A stretch of DNA of 64,000 nt. It comes from Aliikangiella coralliicola (lineage in GTDB: Bacteria > Pseudomonadota > Gammaproteobacteria > Enterobacterales > Kangiellaceae). The position numbers were made by a program, and so were the translations under genes. The stretch's first letter is position 1. Each line of letters starts with the position of its first letter. This document shows positions 52,948-64,000 of the stretch, one piece after another. The stretch is from NCBI RefSeq assembly GCF_007004725.1, contig NZ_ML660166.1:186001-250000 (forward strand), read 5' to 3'. Below the pieces are notes generated by a model that saw only the letters and a list, made by a program, of their open reading frames with translations, searched no databases and was not told the DNA's origin.

Positions 52948-53478
52948 TTAAAAGTCAGATGTTGATTCGAATAATCCGACACGCAAGTTCTTCGCGGTAT
53001 AAATCTCGCGATCATCAACCAGCATTTTTGCGTCAGCAATCACCAACGCCAGGCCTTTTTTAATAACTCTTTTGATATCAACAATATAGGTAACCAACTT
53101 TGCAGTTGGTAAAACCTGACCCACAAATTTGATTTCGCCTGCGCCCAAAGCGCGGCCTTTACCTGGATTGCCCATCCAGGACAGAAAGAATCCACTCAAT
53201 TGCCATAAAGCATCTAAGCCTAAACATCCAGGCATAACGGGATCGGTTTCGAAATGACAGTCAAAGAACCAGAGATCAGGATTGATATCAAGTTCTGCAA
53301 TAATTTGACCTTTACCGTATTCGCCTCCCTCATCACTAATGGAGGTAATTCTGTCCATCATCAGCATGTTGGGGAGAGGTAAACGGGCAATTGGGCGTCC
53401 GTTGGAAGCAGAACCAATCAATTCACCTTTACCACAGGCAATTAACTCTTCGCGGGAAAAAGACTCGGTACGACTCAT
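52948..53478 (-). CDS. fabA: 3-hydroxydecanoyl-ACP dehydratase/isomerase
   Basis: A 176-residue hot-dog enzyme that dehydrates 3-hydroxydecanoyl-ACP and isomerises the product to cis-3, the branch point to unsaturated fatty acids. The active site is His75 ([17 protein letters not shown]) with Asp89 ([12 protein letters not shown]), corresponding to E. coli His70/Asp84. Presence with fabB implies oxygen-independent synthesis of unsaturated lipids. Confidence 0.96.
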
Positions 53479-53550
53479 AGAATATAAACCTTATAAATGA
53501 CGGCTAGGTTAAAAAGTTAATCCGGAACAAGACGTTATCTATACTCGTCC

Positions 53551-53573
53551 AGAGATCCTTATTAAGGATCTCT
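53551..53573. promoter_or_regulatory. 23-bp perfect dyad upstream of fabA
   Basis: AGAGATCCTT and AAGGATCTCT pair perfectly around ATT, about 75 bp upstream of the fabA start. No T-run follows on either strand, so it is more likely an operator or mRNA structure than the cysS terminator. The rest of the 354-bp gap 53479-53832 shows only an imperfect repeat of CACTCAA(A)T segments (53581-53612). Confidence 0.5.
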
Positions 53574-53832
53574 GATTGGACACTCAATTGAAAATATCCA
53601 CTCAAATATTGACGACTGTCAAAAGCCGATTTGTTGCCCCAGCTAAAAATCGCGCTATTATCCCTTGTTTACTCGACATAACTGGTATGACCTTAGTGAA
53701 CAAGTGTAAGCTGAATGATTAGCAAACAATAGCCTATTTATCTTTGAGTAGCATTCTGGTCTGTGCTTTCGCGTTTACCTGGCAACTTTTCAACTACGAC
53801 AGGATTAGAGAAAATAAGACCTATTGCCTGTT

Positions 53833-55230
53833 TTATACTCTTCGCCACCCGGTTTTACCGTCTTTGTCCTCTAAGACAATCCCCATCTGCTGTAGCTTGT
53901 CACGAATTTCATCGGCTTTCGCCCAATTTTTTTCAGCCCGTGCTTGATTACGCTCAGCAATCATCGCGTCAATTTCCGAAGTTTCGTCATCAGCTGCAGC
54001 GTCACCAGCCCCTGACTTCAAGAAAGCCTCTGGCGATTGTTGCAGCAATCCAAGAACATCACCTAATTCAATTAATATGGCCGCAAGTTCTCTGGCAGCT
54101 TCCACATTTGATGCTTTAACGCGGTTTATTTCTTTCGCCAGCTCAAATAAAACAGCGAGGGCCTCAGGCGTGTTAAAGTCGTCATCCATTGCCTGTTTGA
54201 ATTTTGTAATGTAAGGATTATCTGCGGAAACCGAGGGTAACTTAGATAAATCAAGATCACGTAGTGCAAGATACAATCTTTCCAGACCAGCATCGGCTGA
54301 CTTTAAATTGTCCTCACTATAATTCAACTGGCTACGATAGTGGCTGGAAACCATAAAATATCGCACAGATTCAGCGCGATACTGAGCAAGCACATCTCGA
54401 ATAGTGAAGAAGTTATTCAATGACTTTGACATTTTTTCTTTGTCAACCTGCACCATACCAGTATGGATCCAGGTGTTAGCAAAACAACAGCCGTTAGCTG
54501 CTTCCGATTGTGCTATTTCATTTTCGTGGTGCGGAAATTGAAGATCAGAGCCGCCACCGTGAATATCAAAATGCTCACCTAAGCATTTTTTTGACATGGC
54601 AGAACATTCAATATGCCAACCTGGTCGACCATCACCCCAGGGCGACTCCCAGCTAGGCTCTCCGGCCTTCGCCATCTTCCACAACACAAAATCCATCGGG
54701 CTTTTTTTATCGCTCGCGACTTCAACCCTTTCTCCAGCTTGAAGTGCCTCAAGATTTTGTTTACTTAACTTGCCATAGTCCGCAAATTTAGAAACATGGT
54801 AATAGATATCGCCATTCGCTCCTTGATAAGCAAAATCTTTCTCAATCAGCAACTCAATGATATCAATAATTTCCTTGATTGATTCGGTAGCTTTCGGCTC
54901 AATATCAGGTTTAATCATGCCAAGAGAGTCAAAATCTTCATGCATGATTTTTTCAAATCGATTGGTTAACTCATTAATGCTTTCGTTATTTTCATTTGCG
55001 CGGGCAATTATTTTGTCATCAATATCAGTGATGTTACGTACAAAAGTTAAATCGAACTGACTATAGCGTAAATAACGAGCAATCACGTCAAATGCGACAA
55101 AAGTTCTTGCATGACCGATATGGCTGTAATCATAAATAGTAATTCCGCAGACGTACATGCGGACTTTACCTGGTTCAATTGGCTTAAACTCCTGCTTGCC
55201 CTGTGAAATACTGTTATAAATTCGCAACAT
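53833..55230 (-). CDS. cysS: cysteinyl-tRNA synthetase
   Basis: A 465-residue class I synthetase. I start at ATG 55230 ([20 protein letters not shown]), the usual N-terminus; 44 further codons upstream lack similarity. The HIGH motif is [17 protein letters not shown], the zinc ligands include the Cys of [10 protein letters not shown] and [14 protein letters not shown] with the following His, and the signature lysine loop is KMSKSLNNF. The C-terminal domain has the anticodon-binding [13 protein letters not shown] block. In E. coli cysS is adjacent to ppiB-lpxH; here the TonB-YfiR-GGDEF operon separates them. Confidence 0.96.
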
Positions 55231-55363
55231 CTTTGTCAAAACTCCATCTGTTCTCGTTATGTTTTCGTTATTAGTCGTTGAATTGATGACCAGTGACTTA
55301 GGTTGCAAAGGAACTATTGGGTGATTTTTAGCCAAATGCAATATTACTTTTGGCTCCAGCAAA

Positions 55364-55389
55364 ACTCACACACCATACTCACACACCCT
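55364..55389. repeat. 13-bp tandem duplication
   Basis: ACTCACACACCAT is followed by ACTCACACACCCT, in the 305-bp gap 55231-55535 between the cysS start and the end of the GGDEF-EAL gene. The remainder of that gap holds no recognisable signal. Confidence 0.8.
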
Positions 55390-55535
55390 TGGTTAGTGCT
55401 TCCCCATATCATCCTTTTCAACAAGCCTGGATAAAATCAAAGCCTATTATAATGAGGTTACTTTGCTAAAGCACGTGTAATATTTTTGAGATATAAGGCC
55501 CCGAAATTCCGGCGGTCGAAGAAAAACTTAATACT

Positions 55536-57578
55536 TCAGGCAGATTGTGCAGGGTCAAAAGGTTCTGAGCGTTTTAGCCACTCAACAAATTCAGTTTCTG
55601 GTACCGGTTTTAGAAAATAATAGCCCTGAACATAATCACAATTAAGTGCCCGTAAAATTTCCAACTGACTTTCGGTTTCAACTCCCTCTGCGACTAACTC
55701 AATTTGTAGTTGTTTTCCTAATGAGATAATTCCCTTAATTAATCGTCTGTCTTGCTGGCTTATATCAATCCTCTGAATGAACGAATGATCGAGTTTAATA
55801 CAATCTATCGGTAAGGTTCTTAGATAATTCAGTGAGGAATATCCTGTACCGAAATCATCCAGACTCAAACGAACCCTGAGCTTTTTAATTGCTGACACCA
55901 CTTCTTGTGCTACTTCAGGATCTTCAATAAGTACCGCTTCTGTAATTTCTATTTCCAGTAACTCAGGTTCAATTTTGTATGTCGCCAAGTGCTCTTTGAT
56001 CACTTTAACAATATTAAAGTTTGTAAAATGTCTGCCCGATAAATTGACTGACAGACTCGTATTGGAAACCCCTTTACTTTGCCAGTTTTTCAATGTCTCA
56101 AATGACTTTCTCAACACATAATAATCAAGCTGGATAATTAATTTACTTTCTTCGGCATATGGAATAAATGCAGCAGGCGTCAGGAAGCCTTCCTTAGGAT
56201 GCTGCCAGCGAATTAAAACTTCACACCCTGACACCTTATTCGATTTTAAATATATTTTAGGTTGATAATATAAAACCAGTTGTTCTTCTTCTAATGCTTT
56301 TACCAGATCGTTCTGGATCATTAAACGATGCTTAACATCTTCCTGCATGTCAGGCGTATATACAAAAAAGCAATTCTTACCTGAATCTTTTGCTCGATAC
56401 ATCGCTACATCTGCTTTTCTTTTTATTGAATTGAGAGACTCTCCATGGTCAGGAAACAATGAGGCCCCGATACTGACACCAGTTTTAACACGTTCATTTT
56501 TGATATAAAAATCTGACGAAAACACATTCAGTATTTTCCTTGTGGCAATGTTGAGCGCGTCAAGGGTTCGAAGACCAACCAACAAAATGACAAATTCATC
56601 GCCGCCGAGTCGGCAAACCAGATCTTCTTTTCGAACAGTTTGTTTTAACCTTCTGGCCACTTCAACTAACAATTTGTCGCCATAATTATGACCTTTAGTA
56701 TCATTAATCGTTTTAAAGTTATCCAGATCGAGTAACAGGCAAGCAAACTTATTGGAACGCCGCAACGCCTGATCGGCGGCCAAAGTAAAACGCTCAGAAA
56801 GCACGGCTCGATTGGGTAAGCCTGTCAACGAATCATGAAATGCCCGATGGCGAAATTCGTCCGCCAGTTTTTCCAGTTCGACAGTCCGCATTTCAACAAG
56901 CTTTTCCAATTTCTCATCTCGTTGCTCAACCTTTTCCAACATATGATTAAACATTGCGGCAAGTTTGCCAACCTCGTCTGATGAATACTGTTCAGCTCTC
57001 AGACCGTAGTTTTGTGTTTGTGCAACTTGCGCAGACATCGAATATAAATGAAGAATGGGCGCGGAGATCAAACGCTGAAAAATTAACGCCAGAATCGCCG
57101 CCAAAACAACTGAAATAGTAATATTCAAGAACATCGCAATGATAATATTCTTTATGACTTCATTCAGGTTGTGATTAAATACATCGACTCGAATTATGCC
57201 GATACTTTCGCCATCAACAACAATCTGTTTTTCGATATTTTCAATTCTTTCCGGTTGGATGTTCTCGGCGCCAGAAGACAGTTCGAAAAACAAATGCTCC
57301 TCAGCATCATAAACCTTTACATTTACTATCGCTTTATCTTGAAACAGGCTTTCAACCGTTTCTTTCAAGTTATCTTTATCTTCAAATAATAAAGCAGAAC
57401 CAATATTGTCGCTGATGATTTGAATTTCCATTTGAACCCTTTGCTCAAATGCCTCAGAAAAATGCGCAAACTCTTTAAATGCAGTTATCGAAGTCATCAC
57501 AATTGAGACAATCAAACTGATAAAGAAAGTTATCAGTATAATTTTCCCTCGAATAGAAGCATTAACAAAATACTTCAT
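55536..57578 (-). CDS. membrane HAMP-GGDEF-EAL protein with periplasmic sensor domain
   Basis: A 680-residue inner-membrane enzyme. Membrane helix 11-33, periplasmic domain 34-140 resembling the CHASE8 sensor of YfiN-type proteins (NIGSALLFEDKDNLKETVES), membrane helix 141-168, HAMP 168-222 and a coiled coil. The GGDEF domain has an intact GGDEF at 325-329 and inhibitory RKED at 316-319. The EAL domain keeps ExL (EVL, 453-455), DDFGTGYSSLNYL, IKLDHSF and AEGVET, so both cyclase and phosphodiesterase activity are possible. Its ATG overlaps the stop of the YfiR gene by four bases. By analogy with YfiBNR, the periplasmic partner should inhibit it. Confidence 0.9.
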   Translation of the reverse strand: MKYFVNASIRGKIILITFFISLIVSIVMTSITAFKEFAHFSEAFEQRVQMEIQIISDNIGSALLFEDKDNLKETVESLFQDKAIVNVKVYDAEEHLFFELSSGAENIQPERIENIEKQIVVDGESIGIIRVDVFNHNLNEVIKNIIIAMFLNITISVVLAAILALIFQRLISAPILHLYSMSAQVAQTQNYGLRAEQYSSDEVGKLAAMFNHMLEKVEQRDEKLEKLVEMRTVELEKLADEFRHRAFHDSLTGLPNRAVLSERFTLAADQALRRSNKFACLLLDLDNFKTINDTKGHNYGDKLLVEVARRLKQTVRKEDLVCRLGGDEFVILLVGLRTLDALNIATRKILNVFSSDFYIKNERVKTGVSIGASLFPDHGESLNSIKRKADVAMYRAKDSGKNCFFVYTPDMQEDVKHRLMIQNDLVKALEEEQLVLYYQPKIYLKSNKVSGCEVLIRWQHPKEGFLTPAAFIPYAEESKLIIQLDYYVLRKSFETLKNWQSKGVSNTSLSVNLSGRHFTNFNIVKVIKEHLATYKIEPELLEIEITEAVLIEDPEVAQEVVSAIKKLRVRLSLDDFGTGYSSLNYLRTLPIDCIKLDHSFIQRIDISQQDRRLIKGIISLGKQLQIELVAEGVETESQLEILRALNCDYVQGYYFLKPVPETEFVEWLKRSEPFDPAQSA

Positions 57579-58165
57579 AACTCGCTCCTTTTACGAGATA
57601 ACTTGAGCAGTTTCGCGCTTATTTTTAATTGCTTTGACACAGCTAATTCATTGTCAATTTCAAAACTGAGTTTTCGACCACGCATATGAAGCAGAATAAC
57701 ACTATTAACTACCTGTTCATCCTCAGCCACAACGAGTGAATACTCAGGAAACCGCTCGCTGTTTTCATTGAACCATTGAGACATTGATTCGCTAACAAAA
57801 ATAATATGACAGCGATTTAAAAGGTCGAGACTTTCCTGAGTAGCGCTACTCTCCTCCTTAATAGCCTCTTGATTGAAGTTTTCTTTTATTCCCCCGATAT
57901 GAATCACTCTGAGTTTATATTCTTTAACTTTCTTGTTGTTAATAGTCGATAGTTGATATTGAACCTCTTTATTAACATCACCAATACAGAGGTTGACATG
58001 TTCAGTATTAGCAAAACTATCTTTCGGCCAAATTATAAACTTTGAAAAATAGTAAAGATAAGCAACTTTCATGGCCGCAGCCTTCTGCTCCGCAGCGGTT
58101 GATTGCACACAAAACATAAGCAGGATTACTAATGCAGTACAACAGTTGAACAACCTACAAACCAT
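57575..58165 (-). CDS. YfiR-family (DUF4154) periplasmic regulator
   Basis: A 196-residue exported protein. Residues 1-25 are a signal peptide (CTALVILLMFCVQSTAA). The YfiR/DUF4154 signature is AYLYYFSKFIIWPKDSF, followed by NLCIGDVN and the C-terminal VILLHMRGRKLSFEIDNELA segment with KISAKLLKLS. In Pseudomonas YfiR holds the cyclase YfiN inactive from the periplasm. Here the neighbouring downstream gene encodes a YfiN-like sensor enzyme and the upstream gene an outer-membrane receptor. It begins 3 nt after the receptor stop. Confidence 0.92.
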   Translation of the reverse strand: MVCRLFNCCTALVILLMFCVQSTAAEQKAAAMKVAYLYYFSKFIIWPKDSFANTEHVNLCIGDVNKEVQYQLSTINNKKVKEYKLRVIHIGGIKENFNQEAIKEESSATQESLDLLNRCHIIFVSESMSQWFNENSERFPEYSLVVAEDEQVVNSVILLHMRGRKLSFEIDNELAVSKQLKISAKLLKLSRKRSEL

Positions 58166-58168
58166 CCG

Positions 58169-60160
58169 CTAAAAACTCCAGGAAAAAGTGAGGTAGTGCG
58201 CTTTTTCAACATACAAACCATCAATCGAAAAAAAGATTCTCTGACCTTCCAGGTATCGACTTTCCCTCAGGTTTTTAAAGGTATAATTCAAATGCAGACC
58301 TGGTGAAAACTGATAGTTAACATTCACGTCAGCTGTAACAAAGTCATCAGATAAAATCACATCATTACCAGAAGAATATCTTAACCACAACTCTAGCCCT
58401 AGATCTTCAGTGAACTGATAGCTATTTTGTAATGAAGCTAAGTGATCAACAGCCTCAAGGCCGCTATCATTATCGCCAAGATAGCTATAGGAAAATTGCA
58501 GTTTCCAATCCGAACTCATTCTAGCCAATAAGTTTATCTCAACACCATCGGTTCGAAATGATTTTTCAGAATTGTAAGCTAACCTTTGAATTAAATAACT
58601 GTCAGGCCCCGGTGGAAACTCGGAAAACCCGGGCAACCCTAGATTTGAAGTCATAAGCTCGTTTTCATATTCAAACCGAAAAGCGGTCAAGTCAATATTC
58701 ATATTTTCCCACAAGTGTCGATACCCGAACTCCACCGAATTAACTCGCGTATTTTTAACCTTGTGACTTTCAGTGATATTAATGACCAGGGGAAATCCGG
58801 TTCCTGTGTTTTCCGCGGGAATAGCACCAATAATTGTTCGAGTATTTTTTAGCAAGCCGACGGATGGAATGGAAGCGGCTTGTGATGCGGCAAACCAAAA
58901 TCGATCTTTATCAGAAGCCTTCCACAATAGCCGAGTCGAAGGTTGAAACTCATAACCGGTCAGTGAATTATTATCGATTCTCGCACCAATTTTTAGCAGT
59001 AGTTTTTCATCCATTAACGAAAAATTACCGTTGATAAATCCACCGACATAGTCAACGCCGAGTGACTCTGGGTCAACGGCAACTGGGAAACGAGGGTCAG
59101 CAAAAAAGTCCGTTTGCGCGTGCCTTAAATTAATGCCTGTGTCGAATAAATGCTGATGATATTTATGCTGAGTTTCAAGATCAAACTGAATGTTTTCCGA
59201 ATCCCAATGATACAAACTCAAATTTCTATCGGTGATATCGTAAGATAGTCTGGAACGAATCAATGTTTCTGGCGTGAGTTGAAGGTGGTAATTCACCTGA
59301 AAAACATCACCGGTTTTATCTTCAAAATTTTCAAACTGAGTGACATTGGGTAACTCATATGCAGTCCAAAAATTAGACTGTTTATTGCGAAAATGGCTAA
59401 GAGAAAACTGTAGTTCACTTTGCTCACTGTGTTTCTCTAATTGATACGTCACACGACTATCGACAAAATCTCGCTGCTGTATGGTTTCATCTCTGTTCTT
59501 CCACCCCTCGGCATCATTCCTATGAATGCTAATCGAATGAAACCAGTTATCATTAACATTGTTGTTATAATAAACATCAATATTATTTCGATAAGAGTTT
59601 CCAGTGACAACGCGGAGTTTATTTTTCGTTGCCGAATCAGCATTCTTGGTAATAATATTAATGATACCGTTTACCGCATTTGCCCCCCACGAGTCTGCAT
59701 TAGGCCCCCTGATAACTTCAACTCTTTCAATGCTATTGATTGAGACATTAAGTTCGTCCCAATTCACACCGCTAAAATTAGTGTTATTGGTCACTCGCCC
59801 ATTAATGAGAACTAATACGAATCGCGCAAAGCGCCCACCTGTACCTCGAATTGACACCCCCCATTCACTTGCGCCCATTCTCTCGACAAGAACGCCGGGA
59901 ACCATACTCAAAGCATCAGGAATATTTTGAATATTGTTTCGACTAATGTCATCTGCGGTGATAACGTAGGCAGCATAGGGTAAATCAAATGCTTTCGATG
60001 TATTTTTACCGGCACTCTCGACTTCTATGTCCATCGAAACCAAGTCTTCCAGTTGAAGCTCTATAAGCTCCGCAGCCGTTGGTTCTGCCGCTAGTGCAAT
60101 TCCGGTATTAGAAACAACAAAAAGAGAAATGATAAGAAATAGTTGAAGGTGTCGGTCCAT
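58169..60160 (-). CDS. TonB-dependent receptor-like outer-membrane protein
   Basis: A 663-residue protein: signal peptide 1-24, plug domain about 45-165 (YVITADDISRNNIQNIPDAL, RGTGGRFARFVLVLINGR, VEVIRGPNADSWGANAVNG), then a beta-barrel to the terminal Phe of SFSWSF-type end (LTFSWSF). The region before the plug (LEDLVSMDIEVESAGKNTSK) is the form seen in receptors linked to YfiR and GGDEF genes. It may import a ligand or act as an outer-membrane sensor; the ligand is unknown. I saw no Fur box upstream, so iron is not specially supported. It is the first gene of the three-gene operon. Confidence 0.9.
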   Translation of the reverse strand: MDRHLQLFLIISLFVVSNTGIALAAEPTAAELIELQLEDLVSMDIEVESAGKNTSKAFDLPYAAYVITADDISRNNIQNIPDALSMVPGVLVERMGASEWGVSIRGTGGRFARFVLVLINGRVTNNTNFSGVNWDELNVSINSIERVEVIRGPNADSWGANAVNGIINIITKNADSATKNKLRVVTGNSYRNNIDVYYNNNVNDNWFHSISIHRNDAEGWKNRDETIQQRDFVDSRVTYQLEKHSEQSELQFSLSHFRNKQSNFWTAYELPNVTQFENFEDKTGDVFQVNYHLQLTPETLIRSRLSYDITDRNLSLYHWDSENIQFDLETQHKYHQHLFDTGINLRHAQTDFFADPRFPVAVDPESLGVDYVGGFINGNFSLMDEKLLLKIGARIDNNSLTGYEFQPSTRLLWKASDKDRFWFAASQAASIPSVGLLKNTRTIIGAIPAENTGTGFPLVINITESHKVKNTRVNSVEFGYRHLWENMNIDLTAFRFEYENELMTSNLGLPGFSEFPPGPDSYLIQRLAYNSEKSFRTDGVEINLLARMSSDWKLQFSYSYLGDNDSGLEAVDHLASLQNSYQFTEDLGLELWLRYSSGNDVILSDDFVTADVNVNYQFSPGLHLNYTFKNLRESRYLEGQRIFFSIDGLYVEKAHYLTFSWSF

Positions 60161-60584
60161 CGCAATGTAAGTTGATTGGTCTATTATAATATTAAGTATA
60201 GTCGTTCTTTTTAATATTTCACCGAGTAAAATGAATCATCTTTTCAATTTTAAATTATTGACTTTTAGCTTTAATACAGTTTAGTAAGGGCTTGATTTAA
60301 AATAGATCAATTCAAACTTTTCATTATTTTTTGTTCATATCTTATGCGGTAAAGATATAAAGAACAAAGATTGATTCAATCAAACAATTCGATAGAAGAA
60401 TTCCCAGAAGCCCAAAGAATTTCGAAGACACAATAGACGATTGATAAGTCGCCACTCCGGTCAGTCTTGAGAAGTTCAAACGAATGACTTATCTCATCTG
60501 GTGAATCATTCGCTAATTTCAATCTCAATATCTTTAAGGTAGAATCCCATTTTCAAATAAAGCAAATGATAAGCGAGAGCAATT
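60161..60584. promoter_or_regulatory. divergent promoter region, receptor operon and ppiB
   Basis: A perfect -10 hexamer TATAAT on the minus strand (60183-60188) lies 23 bp before the receptor start; its -35 is weak. No Fur box, sigma-54 motif, riboswitch or extra reading frame was recognised in the 424 bp, which are very AT-rich. Confidence 0.4.
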
Positions 60585-61076
60585 ATGGTAACTATTGAGA
60601 CAAATCTTGGGAACATTAAAGTCGAGTTATTGCCTGAGAAAGCACCAGAGTCAGTCAAGAATTTTCTGGAATATGTGGAAAGCGGCCATTATGAAGGGAC
60701 CATTTTTCATCGAGTGATCGAAAATTTTATGATCCAGGGTGGCGGTTTCGATAAAGAAATGAACCAGAAACCAACCAATCAGCCAATTAAATGCGAATCA
60801 CAAAACGGCGTTTCCAATAAAACCGGTACTCTCGCCATGGCCAGAACAATGGACCCACACTCGGCAACCTGTCAGTTTTTTATCAATGTAAAAGATAATA
60901 ACTTCCTCGACTTTACAGCCGAAACAGCTCAGGGCTGGGGCTATGCAGTCTTTGGTGAAGTTGTTGACGGAATGGCTGTCGTTAATCAGATTAAGAGTGT
61001 CGAAACCGGCTTTGCCAGCGGAATGCAAGATGTCCCTGTTGAACCTGTAGAGATTATTAAGATCACCGTAGAATAA
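60585..61076 (+). CDS. ppiB: peptidyl-prolyl cis-trans isomerase B (cyclophilin)
   Basis: A 163-residue cytosolic cyclophilin. Active-site residues lie in IFHRVIENFMIQGG (His, Arg, Phe), GTLAMARTMDPHSATCQFFI and the C-terminal GYAVFGEVVDGMAVV. There is no signal peptide, which distinguishes it from periplasmic PpiA. GAGAG precedes the ATG. It is followed by lpxH after 45 bp, the conserved ppiB-lpxH order. Confidence 0.95.
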   Translation: MVTIETNLGNIKVELLPEKAPESVKNFLEYVESGHYEGTIFHRVIENFMIQGGGFDKEMNQKPTNQPIKCESQNGVSNKTGTLAMARTMDPHSATCQFFINVKDNNFLDFTAETAQGWGYAVFGEVVDGMAVVNQIKSVETGFASGMQDVPVEPVEIIKITVE

Positions 61077-61121
61077 ATCAGGTCAAGGCACACAGAGCGA
61101 ATTATTCAGGGTAAACATTCC

Positions 61122-61856
61122 ATGTCGAAAATTATTCACATTATTTCTGACTTACATCTGGTGGAAAGTCAGCCACATCTGCTCAATTTATTTACTCATT
61201 ACATACAAAAGATTGCGCCTGAAAGCGAGTGCCTTTATGTTCTGGGTGATCTATTTGAAGTATGGGTCGGAGATGATAATCATACGAATTTTAACCAGCA
61301 GGTTATTGATCTATTCGCAGAATATAGTCGACATGGCCAATTGTTTTTCGCCCATGGAAATCGAGATTTTTTACTTGGACATCAATTTGCCAAAGCCTGT
61401 GGCGGTGAACTAATTGATGAGCCTCATTTGCTAGACTGGGCAGGACAAACAATCTGCATGATGCATGGTGATGCATTGTGCACCGACGACGTCGCTTATC
61501 AACAACTTAGGAATACAGTAAGAAGCGAACAATGGCAACAACAGTTTCTCAGTCAAACAGTATCTAAGAGGCTTGAAATCGCAGATGGAATTCGTGCGAA
61601 AAGCAAAGATGCACAACAAAATAAAAATACGGAAATTATGGACGTGAACGCGCAAGCCGTATTTGATTGCTTTAAATCCAATCAGTGCCAGTGGCTCATT
61701 CACGGCCATACACACCGAGAAGGACGGCATATGGTCGACATGGGTGATAATAATACAGTCGAAAGAGTGGTATTGAGCGACTGGGCAGAACAAGGACACT
61801 ATCTGTCGCTTAAAAATTCTCAAGTTCAAAGTCATTTTTTTGATTTAGAAAACTGA
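61122..61856 (+). CDS. lpxH: UDP-2,3-diacylglucosamine pyrophosphatase
   Basis: A 244-residue metallophosphoesterase making lipid X, fourth step of lipid A synthesis, at the inner membrane. All metal-binding motifs are present: ISDLHLVESQPHLL, LGDLFEVWVGDDN, FAHGNRDFLLG, MHGDALCTDD and IHGHTHREGRH. It shows that the organism makes lipid A by the LpxH rather than the LpxI route. Confidence 0.95.
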   Translation: MSKIIHIISDLHLVESQPHLLNLFTHYIQKIAPESECLYVLGDLFEVWVGDDNHTNFNQQVIDLFAEYSRHGQLFFAHGNRDFLLGHQFAKACGGELIDEPHLLDWAGQTICMMHGDALCTDDVAYQQLRNTVRSEQWQQQFLSQTVSKRLEIADGIRAKSKDAQQNKNTEIMDVNAQAVFDCFKSNQCQWLIHGHTHREGRHMVDMGDNNTVERVVLSDWAEQGHYLSLKNSQVQSHFFDLEN

Positions 61857-61927
61857 CCCTGTTTTCTGTCGGTTGATTTTTCGAATAAACTTCAATTTCC
61901 TTTATACAAGGCTTTAATTTCGAAATA

Positions 61928-64000
61928 TTATCGCTCAAGTAATTTTTCGAAATGACCAATCATTGGAAAGTAGAGCCCGGCAATTATTGGGCGACTTTCT
62001 AAACTAACGAACATATTAAAATAATCGGTCATCTGGGTGAGATAAAGCGCAGTCTCTCGTTGCAAAAATTCCTCTAACGATTCCTTTTTTTCTGGCTGAG
62101 AAGACTTGTAATCAATAATCCAGCGAACACCCGAGTCTACAAAAGTCCTGTCGATAATTCTGGTTAAATAATTGCCATGCTCCAGTTTTTTATGCAAAAT
62201 CAGTTCACTTTCAGCTTCCTCTTTTGCACTCAAAACAAACCGTCCGAAATCATCATTGAGCGTCTCTTTCAATCCGTATAAAATTTTACTCACTGCATCA
62301 TCCAACTCATCATCGGAAAACCAGTGAAGTTGTCTCAGTTGAGCGCTGGTTACTTGTGCCCAATTTTGCGGCAATTCGAATGCATCATGCCAATGTTCGC
62401 TCACCCACTGCAATTGGCGATGTAAAACCGTTCCGATTGTGCTCGCTCCATCGGAAATCGCCTGGCCGAGTTCCTCCTGCGCTCCCGCAATCGCTTCACC
62501 CGCAGGTAACTCATCAGGTATTGTTTGTTGCGGCATTTGAGCGGTACGAGAAATATTAACTTGCTTGATCATTCTAGATTCATAAAACGAGTCCACCGAC
62601 TCAGATTTTTCTTGTTCAATTTGAACAGAATCAGCCAACTTTGAATTGATGTTTTTTCCTTCAAAGCCATTAATGATTTTAAAATCATCCTTAACACCTT
62701 GCCATAGCATTGCAAGATAGCTTAGAGAAGTGGCCGGTTTATAAGCTGGCTCAGATGGCGAGCCAGATTTAGAATCAGTTTTTACATTACCTAAAAGATA
62801 AAGGTTTTGCTTCGCACGAGTTGCGGCAACGTATAATACTCGCTGATCTTCATACTTTGATTTTTCATTATCTAAGTATGAAATATAACGGTAGACGCTA
62901 TCATTTTCTCTACCGGTTTCTTTAGATATGGCGATAAGGTTATGTCCATTGCCTTCTTCATCTAACACTTGCGTCCATTTTAACAACACTTGATCTGCCA
63001 TTTTTTTGCCACTATCCAACCTGGGTAATATGACGGTATCAAACTCCAAGCCCTTCGATTTATGAATGGTCATCACTTGAACTTGACCATCAGCCGCGGG
63101 ACTTGAGGCCGCAAATAGTTGTTCAATCGCTTCGATTACCAGTTGACGATCATTCAATTCGCCACCTTCACTCAATTCCGATAATTTATCCAGACACACG
63201 AGCAAGTCATCTCGCTCGGATTGATAATCAAGCTGAGACAAACCACCCAACGCGACGAAACACCCCAACAGCCACTTACGAAAAGGTTTTCTTCCCTTAA
63301 ACCTGATTGTCGATTGCAAAATTGGTAGAATTTTTTCACACCGCGCTCGTGATCCTTTTGACATCATCGGCATTGCACGAACAATTCTTTCAGGTATCGA
63401 CATGCCTTGCTCTGTTTCTGTGAAAACCTGTTTAATATCCTGTAAATCAAGACCAAACCAGGGCGAACGCATACAAGCCGCCCATGACAATTCATCAAAC
63501 TGGTCGCACAACGCAAACGCCAGGCTAGTCAAATCTGATACGATTATTTTTTGCGAAAGCCGATCAATTTCAACCGCTTCAAAATCAATATTGTTTTGAT
63601 TAAGCAACTCGATAATTTCAGTGAAGTTTGTTCTGCTTCTCGCTAGAATTGCGAGGGTTTTCTTCTTTTCGAGTTGCCGGTTTTCATCAAGGTGACTTTG
63701 GACTATTTCAATAACTTTGTTGGCTTGTGCGATATTATTGTCCGCATCTACAGTGAAGAAACTTTCAACCTGGGCGCTCTTACTGCTTTGATTGAAAGCA
63801 ACAGAGTCAGCATAACTCACCGCTGAAAATGTCAAATCTTCTTCTTCCGGCATAATTTGGCTAAATTGCCTATTAACCCAGTCAACGATTGTTTTGTGAG
63901 AGCGAAAGTTGACTTTTAGCTGGCGAAATTTTGGTTTTATAATACCGATTCCTCGATTTCTAATTCTCATGAATAAGCTGACATTCGCGTCGCGAAACCG
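61928..64000 (-). CDS. AddA/RecB-like UvrD helicase-nuclease (3' part)
   Basis: The gene runs off the right edge: in-frame codons before ATG 63970 continue to the last base (FRDANVSLFMRIRN), matching the UvrD-type segment just ahead of NFRS, so this ATG is internal. At least 690 residues are visible. Helicase motifs: VNFRSHKTIVDWVN (IV), VMTIHKSKGLEFDTVILPR (V) and YVAATRAKQNLYLLG (VI). The C-terminal PD-(D/E)XK nuclease has IDYKSS and the following QMTDYF. Walker A and B lie beyond the window. It should unwind and cut double-strand DNA ends for recombination, like AddA or RecB; no partner subunit is visible. It converges with lpxH. Confidence 0.88.
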   Translation of the reverse strand, partial: RFRDANVSLFMRIRNRGIGIIKPKFRQLKVNFRSHKTIVDWVNRQFSQIMPEEEDLTFSAVSYADSVAFNQSSKSAQVESFFTVDADNNIAQANKVIEIVQSHLDENRQLEKKKTLAILARSRTNFTEIIELLNQNNIDFEAVEIDRLSQKIIVSDLTSLAFALCDQFDELSWAACMRSPWFGLDLQDIKQVFTETEQGMSIPERIVRAMPMMSKGSRARCEKILPILQSTIRFKGRKPFRKWLLGCFVALGGLSQLDYQSERDDLLVCLDKLSELSEGGELNDRQLVIEAIEQLFAASSPAADGQVQVMTIHKSKGLEFDTVILPRLDSGKKMADQVLLKWTQVLDEEGNGHNLIAISKETGRENDSVYRYISYLDNEKSKYEDQRVLYVAATRAKQNLYLLGNVKTDSKSGSPSEPAYKPATSLSYLAMLWQGVKDDFKIINGFEGKNINSKLADSVQIEQEKSESVDSFYESRMIKQVNISRTAQMPQQTIPDELPAGEAIAGAQEELGQAISDGASTIGTVLHRQLQWVSEHWHDAFELPQNWAQVTSAQLRQLHWFSDDELDDAVSKILYGLKETLNDDFGRFVLSAKEEAESELILHKKLEHGNYLTRIIDRTFVDSGVRWIIDYKSSQPEKKESLEEFLQRETALYLTQMTDYFNMFVSLESRPIIAGLYFPMIGHFEKLLER

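Follow-up and report, generated by a model that had tools for sequence, protein, structure and literature searches.

A TonB-dependent receptor-like gene that adjoins a YfiR-like gene and a gene for a CHASE8-HAMP-GGDEF-EAL protein raises the question of whether an outer-membrane receptor can serve as the input of a Yfi-type switch. The window, i.e., the whole stretch of DNA that was analysed, comprises 64,000 nucleotides of Aliikangiella coralliicola, and the features that bear on this question are the following.

53833..55362, minus strand: flanking gene cysS (PF01406 and CysS_C, Pfam)
55536..57578, minus strand: inner-membrane CHASE8-HAMP-GGDEF-EAL protein P0001, 680 aa, two TM helices (Pfam, TM and motif positions)
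55605..56312, minus strand: EAL domain of P0001, EVL variant (E453), other expected motifs present
56373..56843, minus strand: GGDEF domain of P0001, intact GGDEF at 325-329, I-site-like RKED at 316-319
57384..57398, minus strand: SALLF, P0001 residues 61-65, putative counterpart of 'AAVVF' in YfiN (matched by eye, without an aligned YfiN sequence)
57575..58165, minus strand: YfiR-like periplasmic protein P0002, 196 aa (PF13689, profile, AF2 model)
57659..57664, minus strand: P0002 F168-E169, counterpart of F162-E163 in P. aeruginosa YfiR (family profile versus 4zhu, alignment A1)
58169..60160, minus strand: TonB-dependent receptor-like P0003, 663 aa, plug and barrel (Plug, NCBIfam, AF2, Foldseek)
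60011..60031, minus strand: TonB-box-like stretch DIEVESA, P0003 residues 44-50 (position just before the plug)
60032..60070, minus strand: conserved N-terminal receptor segment, P0003 residues 31-43 (ELIELQLEDLVSM), putative YfiR contact (alignment A6)
60585..61076, plus strand: flanking gene ppiB, cyclophilin (PF00160, Pfam)
61122-61856: lpxH-like gene after ppiB (PF00149 metallophosphoesterase, which fits lpxH)

The preliminary description had placed three adjacent minus-strand genes between cysS and ppiB, and this observation is confirmed as a whole: inspection of the junctions gave the same coordinates, a 3-nt gap between P0003 and P0002 and a 4-nt overlap between P0002 and P0001, and the flanks were verified by Pfam. 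Nothing useful came from promoter-like sites (21 seen versus 15.2 expected, sd 3.4) or terminator-like sites (4 versus 3.8 expected), and an Rfam scan of 53000-64000 returned no match at the gathering score.

P0003 has an N-terminus resembling a signal peptide, followed by the plug domain and barrel of a TonB-dependent receptor: Plug PF07715 scores 76.1 bits (cut-off 23.9, E 3.8e-21), the AF2 model is a plugged barrel (pLDDT 81.9), and Foldseek matches this model to PirA, BtuB, PfeA and Cir. Residues 32-638 also match positions 2-582 of the 604-position model of the NCBIfam TOL_0244 receptor family NF053590, with 250.9 bits (2.7e-74) and thus below its cut-off of 645. The DIEVESA stretch, picked out by eye, is what we take to be a candidate TonB box. 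The place of such a receptor in a regulatory operon would suit a canonical FecA-like receptor that works through an anti-sigma factor and a signalling domain at its own N-terminus, but such a mechanism is extremely improbable here, as Pfam (E up to 0.1) finds Plug alone in P0003, with no STN domain, and the nearest genes on each side are cysS, ppiB and the lpxH-like gene.

The periplasmic protein P0002 matches DUF4154 'YfiR/HmsC-like' (PF13689) with 77.2 bits (cut-off 24.9, E 1.7e-21), and a profile built from 24 of its relatives finds YfiR in the PDB at 2.8e-16. The best 15 Foldseek matches of its AF2 model (pLDDT 90.3) are all YfiR (E 5.9e-7 to 1.4e-5, TM on the target 0.66-0.73). P0002 nevertheless misses the NCBIfam cut-offs for YfiR (NF053586, 17.1 of 85 bits) and for TOL_0243 (NF053591, 53.9 of 125).

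In the membrane protein P0001, Pfam recognizes CHASE8 (40.1 bits, cut-off 27), GGDEF (157.3) and EAL (239), while HAMP falls slightly below its cut-off (24.4 versus 25). Neither the NCBIfam cut-off for DgcN/YfiN (232.2 of 325) nor that for the 'YfiR-like protein-associated' histidine kinase (100.8 of 194) is reached. The EAL domain carries EVL at 453, DDFGTGYSS at 574 and EGVET at 631. Both the GGDEF and the EAL active sites look intact, and the sign of any change in c-di-GMP therefore cannot be read from the sequence. SALLF is the likely counterpart of 'AAVVF', the YfiR-binding motif of YfiN according to PMC3375315. Its Phe position is F in 108 of 112 YfiR-linked sensors, P0001 included, a set found by a profile seeded from P0001's own domain and in which two pairs of entries (L052/L127 and L033/L168) are, to judge by their identical lengths, contigs counted twice.

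The earlier reading of a three-compartment unit, made up of a receptor, a periplasmic YfiR-like protein and a membrane sensor, is upheld, and so is the proposal that a receptor takes the place of YfiB, the third gene of the operon encoding a TonB-dependent receptor (Pfam Plug). YfiBNR (AwsXRO/TpbB) of Pseudomonas aeruginosa shares with this unit a periplasmic protein of the YfiR family, by fold, a CHASE8-HAMP membrane protein with GGDEF, the YfiR-binding Phe motif and the spread over three compartments. It differs in having the OmpA-like lipoprotein YfiB where a TonB-dependent receptor is found here; no YfiB is present in the operon, whose nearest flanks are cysS and ppiB. Furthermore, P0001 has an extra EAL domain, P0002 lacks Cys145-Cys152, and both score below the YfiN and YfiR NCBIfam cut-offs. 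The NCBIfam TOL_0244/TOL_0243 families and 'YfiR-like protein-associated' histidine kinase appear to follow the same three-part plan, judged from consecutive locus tags and names, but P0003, P0002 and P0001 all lie below these curated cut-offs and the output here is GGDEF-EAL.

The reading that we prefer, tentatively and at a little short of an even chance, is a Yfi-type trans-envelope switch with the TonB-dependent receptor as outer-membrane input, whose N-terminal segment draws YfiR off the CHASE8 sensor. At rest, as residue conservation and precedent suggest, P0002 would hold the CHASE8 domain of P0001 via its hydrophobic F/E face and SALLF; F162-E163 of P. aeruginosa YfiR is reported as the contact face for YfiN and YfiB (PMC3375315, PMC4655355), and the equivalents of F168 and E169 are F in 79/112 and E in 54/112 YfiRs. 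Ligand binding or a TonB pull would then free the receptor segment in the periplasm, where it would draw YfiR off in the manner of YfiB, which sequesters YfiR (PMC4655355, PMC3375315). On release of YfiR, CHASE8 and HAMP would move and shift the balance between cyclase and phosphodiesterase.

Is the linkage on which this depends a general one? A genome scan was seeded with a receptor alignment, and 80 receptors were picked by receptor sequence alone, the domains on the surveyed loci being assigned with purpose-built profiles, not Pfam. DUF4154 lies directly downstream of 58 of the 80 (start -250 to +400 nt from the receptor stop), and 51 of these 58 have a CHASE8 sensor after it. Among the matches listed, TOL_0244-like receptors of at least 400 bits have a same-strand DUF4154 gene no more than 1 kb away in 23/29 cases, versus 2/37 for receptors of 150-400 bits. 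This comparison covers 66 of the 150 matches listed (29 and 37), plus the linked G271:C203, in neither band; left out are the window's own match and ten of 150-166 bits, of which 0/10 have DUF4154 within 1 kb. The receptor-YfiR-sensor linkage is therefore far beyond chance, and the gene order spans many phyla. As to the output, the unit had been described as one of c-di-GMP signalling. This holds for P0001 with its GGDEF-EAL output, but does not define the group: the output module is swappable, most relatives carry a histidine kinase, and the c-di-GMP form is a minority.

The neighbourhoods of DUF4154 genes bear on an unlikely alternative, in which the receptor is only a co-regulated transporter, co-transcription fits uptake to lifestyle, and the GGDEF-EAL protein is controlled by a YfiR that senses periplasmic redox state or stress by itself. 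The class sample contained 63 free-standing DUF4154 genes with an open frame of 120-320 aa, and the 62 examined (the remaining gene lies at the edge of a contig) include 42 next to a CHASE8 sensor and 37 next to a receptor; a CHASE8 neighbour without an adjacent receptor occurs in 19/62 and, in the family sample, in 8/13, so that the core can work without a receptor. In a comparison of trees, which excludes the window and two doubly counted contigs, distances of YfiR and sensor correlate (r 0.60, partial 0.53), those of receptor and YfiR weakly (r 0.38, partial 0.18), the receptor-sensor partial being higher (0.25), and a receptor-YfiR contact is not favoured by this comparison. A YfiB-independent role of YfiR as redox sensor has been proposed (PMC3375315), and 83/112 and 100/112 YfiRs have a Cys where P0002 has Cys60 and Cys119, respectively. 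What a mere transporter does not account for is the receptor-YfiR-sensor order over many phyla and the correlation of the receptor's N-terminal segment with DUF4154. The claim that YfiR acts on the CHASE8 sensor is supported by the motif Phe in 108/112 sensors and the partial correlation of 0.53, and the YfiR-to-enzyme step is well supported by such sequence comparisons and by analogy; the receptor-to-YfiR step would follow by inference. The absence of the Cys145-Cys152 pair, reported to be essential for folding of P. aeruginosa YfiR, from P0002 and the Glu in just 54/112 YfiRs count against the sequestration reading.

The case for the receptor-to-YfiR step in the preferred switch centres on the N-terminal segment, in which E38 is nearly invariant and L40 invariant (39 receptors, alignment A6). 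Among the matches listed, 39/39 receptors starting at model position 4 or earlier are in genomes with DUF4154, compared with 2/4 of those starting at positions 5-6 and 17/104 at positions 7-40 (150 matches, three starting past position 40 set aside; P = 7e-18, counted per genome and ignoring kinship). A restriction of the segment to YfiR-linked receptors was considered and rejected, since it also occurs in orphan receptors. Yet 10 of 11 genomes with P0003-type receptors and no DUF4154 in the same stretch encode DUF4154 elsewhere, against a base rate of 70/299 in the phylum sample; the binomial chance at that rate is 4e-6, for 11 genomes that span several phyla and are mostly MAGs. These 11 are part of 22 survey loci without a close DUF4154, the others having a more distant DUF4154 gene on the same stretch (L126, L141, L162, L163, L165, L172, L190, L196) or an end within 200 nt (L133, L158, L167). 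We therefore hold to the weaker claim that the segment appears to track with DUF4154 in the same genome, even for unlinked receptors, although it may simply be a clade marker. Also counting against the sequestration reading are the orphan receptors with the segment and its disorder in the P0003 model (pLDDT <50 at residues 20-42).

A sister receptor class brings in another alternative. PF04392 ABC_sub_bind was found by Pfam in 6/9 middle or neighbouring genes (L211, L214, L217, L218, L220, L221) and not in the other three scanned (L208, L215, L219); of eight sensors classed as ABC_sub_bind-linked, the neighbour is confirmed for six, Pfam being blank at L215 and L219. Like the present unit, these operons combine a receptor, a periplasmic middle protein and a membrane sensor (sCache_4/CHASE8-type) with histidine kinase or GGDEF-EAL; they differ in PF04392 replacing DUF4154, in the receptor N-terminus and in the sensor motif. 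A ligand relay, in which the receptor imports a ligand that YfiR captures before freeing the sensor, the receptor never touching YfiR, gains from this class, and from a YfiR fold that resembles part of a substrate-binding protein: beyond YfiR, P0002 has Foldseek matches to the small substrate-binding proteins 6k1x and 5z6v and to structures 3lft and 3lkv, which are weak (1.7e-3 to 1.4e-2) and mixed with unrelated enzymes. PDB 5eb2 and 5eb3, presumably YfiR with small molecules bound, were counted on the same side. We nonetheless regard such a relay as somewhat unlikely, as it offers no reason for the co-occurrence of the receptor's N-terminal segment with YfiR, and YfiR is seemingly a single lobe without the usual cleft.

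The unit is a real, conserved and new variant of the Yfi kind; its two inner parts, YfiR and sensor, form a switch of a known type, and its receptor is predicted to be the input of the YfiR-CHASE8 switch, as a widespread variant. Some of this was already known: the modularity of YfiR-YfiN relatives, with GGDEF-EAL, HPT, histidine kinase or MCP replacing GGDEF, and the almost constant lack of YfiB in divergent operons were described in 2012 (PMC3375315, whose main text does not contain the word 'TonB'), and NCBIfam names such receptor and YfiR families. New here are the apparent retention of YfiN's YfiR-contact Phe in these sensors, the short receptor segment that seems to track with DUF4154, and the sister class pairing with an ABC_sub_bind protein instead of YfiR. 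HmrABCX of Caulobacter was dropped as a parallel: as far as the available part of PMC11481889 goes, it has no YfiR and the mention of TonB is unrelated. A bolder proposal, possible but on balance doubtful, is that the segment (around LExL) is a portable YfiR docking peptide through which a TonB-dependent receptor directly controls CHASE8 sensors, that unlinked segment-bearing receptors share the genome's YfiR-CHASE8 modules, and that the parallel class uses an ABC_sub_bind carrier, the two together forming a general cross-phylum route from outer-membrane receptors to c-di-GMP and phosphorelays.

Insertion of the unit as a block between cysS and ppiB, as previously suggested, is only partly supported. 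Another genome of the genus, G002, carries the whole triad at this very site, with a receptor 44% identical; the search for an empty site covered 30 of 40 genomes. The two occupied genomes are not sisters in a CysS+PpiB tree, so that ancestral presence with losses fits equally well, and the GC content of the unit is just 1.6 sd under the window mean.

If true, the preferred switch would name the outer-membrane input for a large share of YfiR-CHASE8 switches, and, with no sigma/anti-sigma pair involved, TOL_0244-type receptors could signal the presence of a surface ligand to c-di-GMP or a kinase. OmpS of Alcanivorax dieselolei, described as an alkane sensor, has 40.3% similarity with TOL_0244; the 80 receptors returned by the genome scan include no Alcanivorax record. 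TOL_0244 itself, the Thalassolituus oleivorans namesake of the receptor family matched by P0003, is reported to be sevenfold up on n-C28 versus Tween 80.

The receptor, YfiR-like and sensor genes picked out in the preliminary description were confirmed, all on the minus strand and separated by a 3-nt gap and then a 4-nt overlap (ATGA). The anatomy of the unit can be stated with high confidence:

55536-57578, minus strand, CHASE8-HAMP-GGDEF-EAL protein (P0001)
57575-58165, minus strand, YfiR/DUF4154 protein (P0002)
58169-60160, minus strand, TonB-dependent receptor-like protein (P0003)
one flank, cysS and fabA-like genes
other flank, ppiB and an lpxH-like phosphoesterase gene

Every part passes its Pfam cut-off except HAMP, which lies slightly under its own. 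P0003 and P0002 have hydrophobic starts fitting signal peptides, while the CHASE8 domain of P0001 is flanked by two hydrophobic helices. The GGDEF and EAL domains of P0001 both retain their motif residues, EVL replacing EAL, and the gene is preceded by a Shine-Dalgarno-like AAGGAG, which, together with the overlap, suggests from the sequence that its translation is coupled. The AlphaFold model of P0003 (mean pLDDT 81.9) is a plugged barrel, nearest to PirA, BtuB, PfeA and Cir, with residues 20-42 below 50. For that of P0002 (90.3), the top 15 PDB matches are all P. aeruginosa YfiR; a profile of 24 relatives also matches PDB YfiR at 2.8e-16, versus only 0.41 for the P0002 sequence alone.

DUF4154 is present in 6/7 genomes of the genus, 15/40 of the family, 38/274 of the class sample and 70/299 of the phylum sample, the window genome being counted each time. 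When the 62 DUF4154 genes of the class sample were sorted by immediate neighbours, 23 stood next to both a receptor and a CHASE8 sensor; just the receptor was present for 14, just the sensor for 19, and neither for 6. The order receptor-YfiR-sensor holds in 22 of these 23 triads, whose outputs are a kinase (17), GGDEF-EAL (3: L074, L075, L079), kinase plus GGDEF-EAL (L052) or GGDEF (L060), one being cut off. The family sample has triads in 5/13, one with a GGDEF-EAL output (L015). The three-family linkage, which the preliminary description already took to recur, is also conserved among the best 80 loci of a receptor-alignment scan of named genomes, which spans many phyla and is not a census: DUF4154 lies directly downstream of the receptor in 58/80 and directly upstream in 1/80 (3/80 end within 200 nt), and a CHASE8 sensor follows in 51 of the 58 (50 by script count, plus L195, missed by the filter). 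The 50 script-counted sensors carry a kinase (44), kinase plus GGDEF-EAL (4) or GGDEF-EAL (2: L150, L156). The triad is therefore real and widespread, with the cyclic-di-GMP ending as a minority form. At six loci (L126, L141, L162, L190, L196, L040), two to three tandem receptors accompany one single or repeated DUF4154 gene.

The unit is a genuine, conserved variant of the Yfi kind, and new as a variant. NCBIfam names the receptor family after TOL_0244, the YfiR family after TOL_0243 and one kinase as 'YfiR-like protein-associated', so the linkage was already known to annotators. YfiR is described as modular with its sensor in a passage of PMC3375315, the main text of which does not mention TonB, and none of the open papers listed for YfiR or DUF4154 together with TonB-dependent receptors describes the triad, going by titles, counts and abstract beginnings.

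The pairing of YfiR with its sensor has good support. According to passages of PMC3375315, YfiN is bound by YfiR at an AAVVF motif, and YfiR contributes a complementary face in the region of Phe162. Of 112 sensors adjoining a DUF4154 gene, counting that of the window, 108 retain the motif Phe and 99 the subsequent Asp; in P0001 the motif reads SALLF-E-D (SALLF, residues 61-65). On its own YfiR-type face P0002 retains both the Phe and the Glu, found in 79/112 and 54/112 YfiRs, respectively.

According to part of PMC4655355, the surface by which YfiR is bound to YfiB contains residues that have been linked to YfiN binding; by analogy, the receptor would draw YfiR off the CHASE8 sensor, possibly through an LExL-type N-terminal segment (P0003 residues 31-43). 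Among listed class-sample receptors scoring at least 400 bits to the TOL_0244 model (NF053590), 23/29 have a same-strand DUF4154 gene no more than 1 kb away (one upstream), as do 2/37 of the weaker receptors entered, most of whose matches begin around model position 14 and so leave out the segment. All 39 listed matches starting at position 4 or earlier are in DUF4154 genomes, 14 of them, by reading of the listings, not linked to a DUF4154 gene; the figures are 2/4 for starts at 5-6 and 17/104 at 7-40 (by genome, among listed matches, 25/25 vs 6/72). In new genomes, 11 of the best 80 loci had a roomy fetched stretch yet no DUF4154; these span several phyla, and 10/11 of their genomes encode DUF4154 elsewhere, versus 70/299 of the phylum sample. 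In tree distances over 78 triads, however, the closest agreement is that of YfiR with sensor (0.60); receptor and YfiR reach 0.38, with a partial value of 0.18 versus 0.25 for receptor-sensor. We therefore infer the receptor step from mixed support, and hold with moderate confidence that the receptor is the true input of the switch. Two further receptors of the window genome (L202 6957-9095, L203 5628-7742) have an LExL-type N-terminal segment and no DUF4154 neighbour.

Alternatively, the receptor could import a ligand that YfiR captures. The best argument for such a relay combines a weak likeness of YfiR to substrate-binding folds with the existence of ABC_sub_bind carriers. After YfiR, the P0002 model matches small substrate-binding proteins and the structures 3lft and 3lkv, with weak E-values and unrelated enzymes interspersed. 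Several weaker-group receptors have a sensor and a different middle gene as neighbours; Pfam assigns PF04392 ABC_sub_bind to six of the nine genes of this kind submitted (L211, L214, L217, L218, L220, L221) and no domain to the other three (L208, L215, L219). The two sensors of this sister class sent to Pfam have sCache_4 and HAMP, with a GGDEF-EAL (L221) or kinase (L217) output, and these ABC_sub_bind-linked loci parallel the YfiR triad. Given the fold likeness, YfiR and the ABC_sub_bind carriers may share a common plan. In eight sister-class sensors the motif Phe is at the aligned position in 0/8 and one residue earlier in 5/8, so a one-residue shift could mask an equivalent. As to ligands, part of PMC6304351 reports TOL_0244 up sevenfold on n-C28, a hint that the ligands of some family members are hydrophobic, which for P0003, a distant match, establishes nothing certain.

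DUF4154 also occurs fused to a histidine kinase, hybrid kinase or GGDEF domain (L008 4994-6919, L010 5941-9234, L011 6211-7848; also L016, L018, L019), through a linker that looks coiled-coil-like by eye and with no CHASE8 detected by a custom profile; such fusions are a natural one-protein form of the YfiR-to-output link. At L009 5418-8953 (C2:617417-620952 of the window's own genome), a gene encoding DUF4154 three times in tandem overlaps one for CHASE8-GGDEF-EAL, with no adjacent receptor, and this pair recurs in further genomes of the genus (L017, L020, L021).

The unit had been proposed to have entered the cysS-ppiB interval as a block. It is absent from that interval in 27 of the 30 family genomes (out of 40) whose ppiB surroundings were examined, cysS there lying beside ppiB; in one more (L098) no cysS was seen up to 1.5 kb from ppiB, and two, the window genome and G002, carry the unit. 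These two are not paired in the CysS+PpiB tree, where the window genome groups with G001 and G002 with G004, both with empty sites; this fits either a single insertion in an ancestor followed by multiple losses or transfer by way of the flanking sequence. In one genome from a different family of the class, the cysS-ppiB-lpxH cluster also has a receptor-YfiR-CHASE8-kinase-GGDEF-EAL unit (L052 279-11287) next to it, past lpxH, by chance or because the site is favoured.
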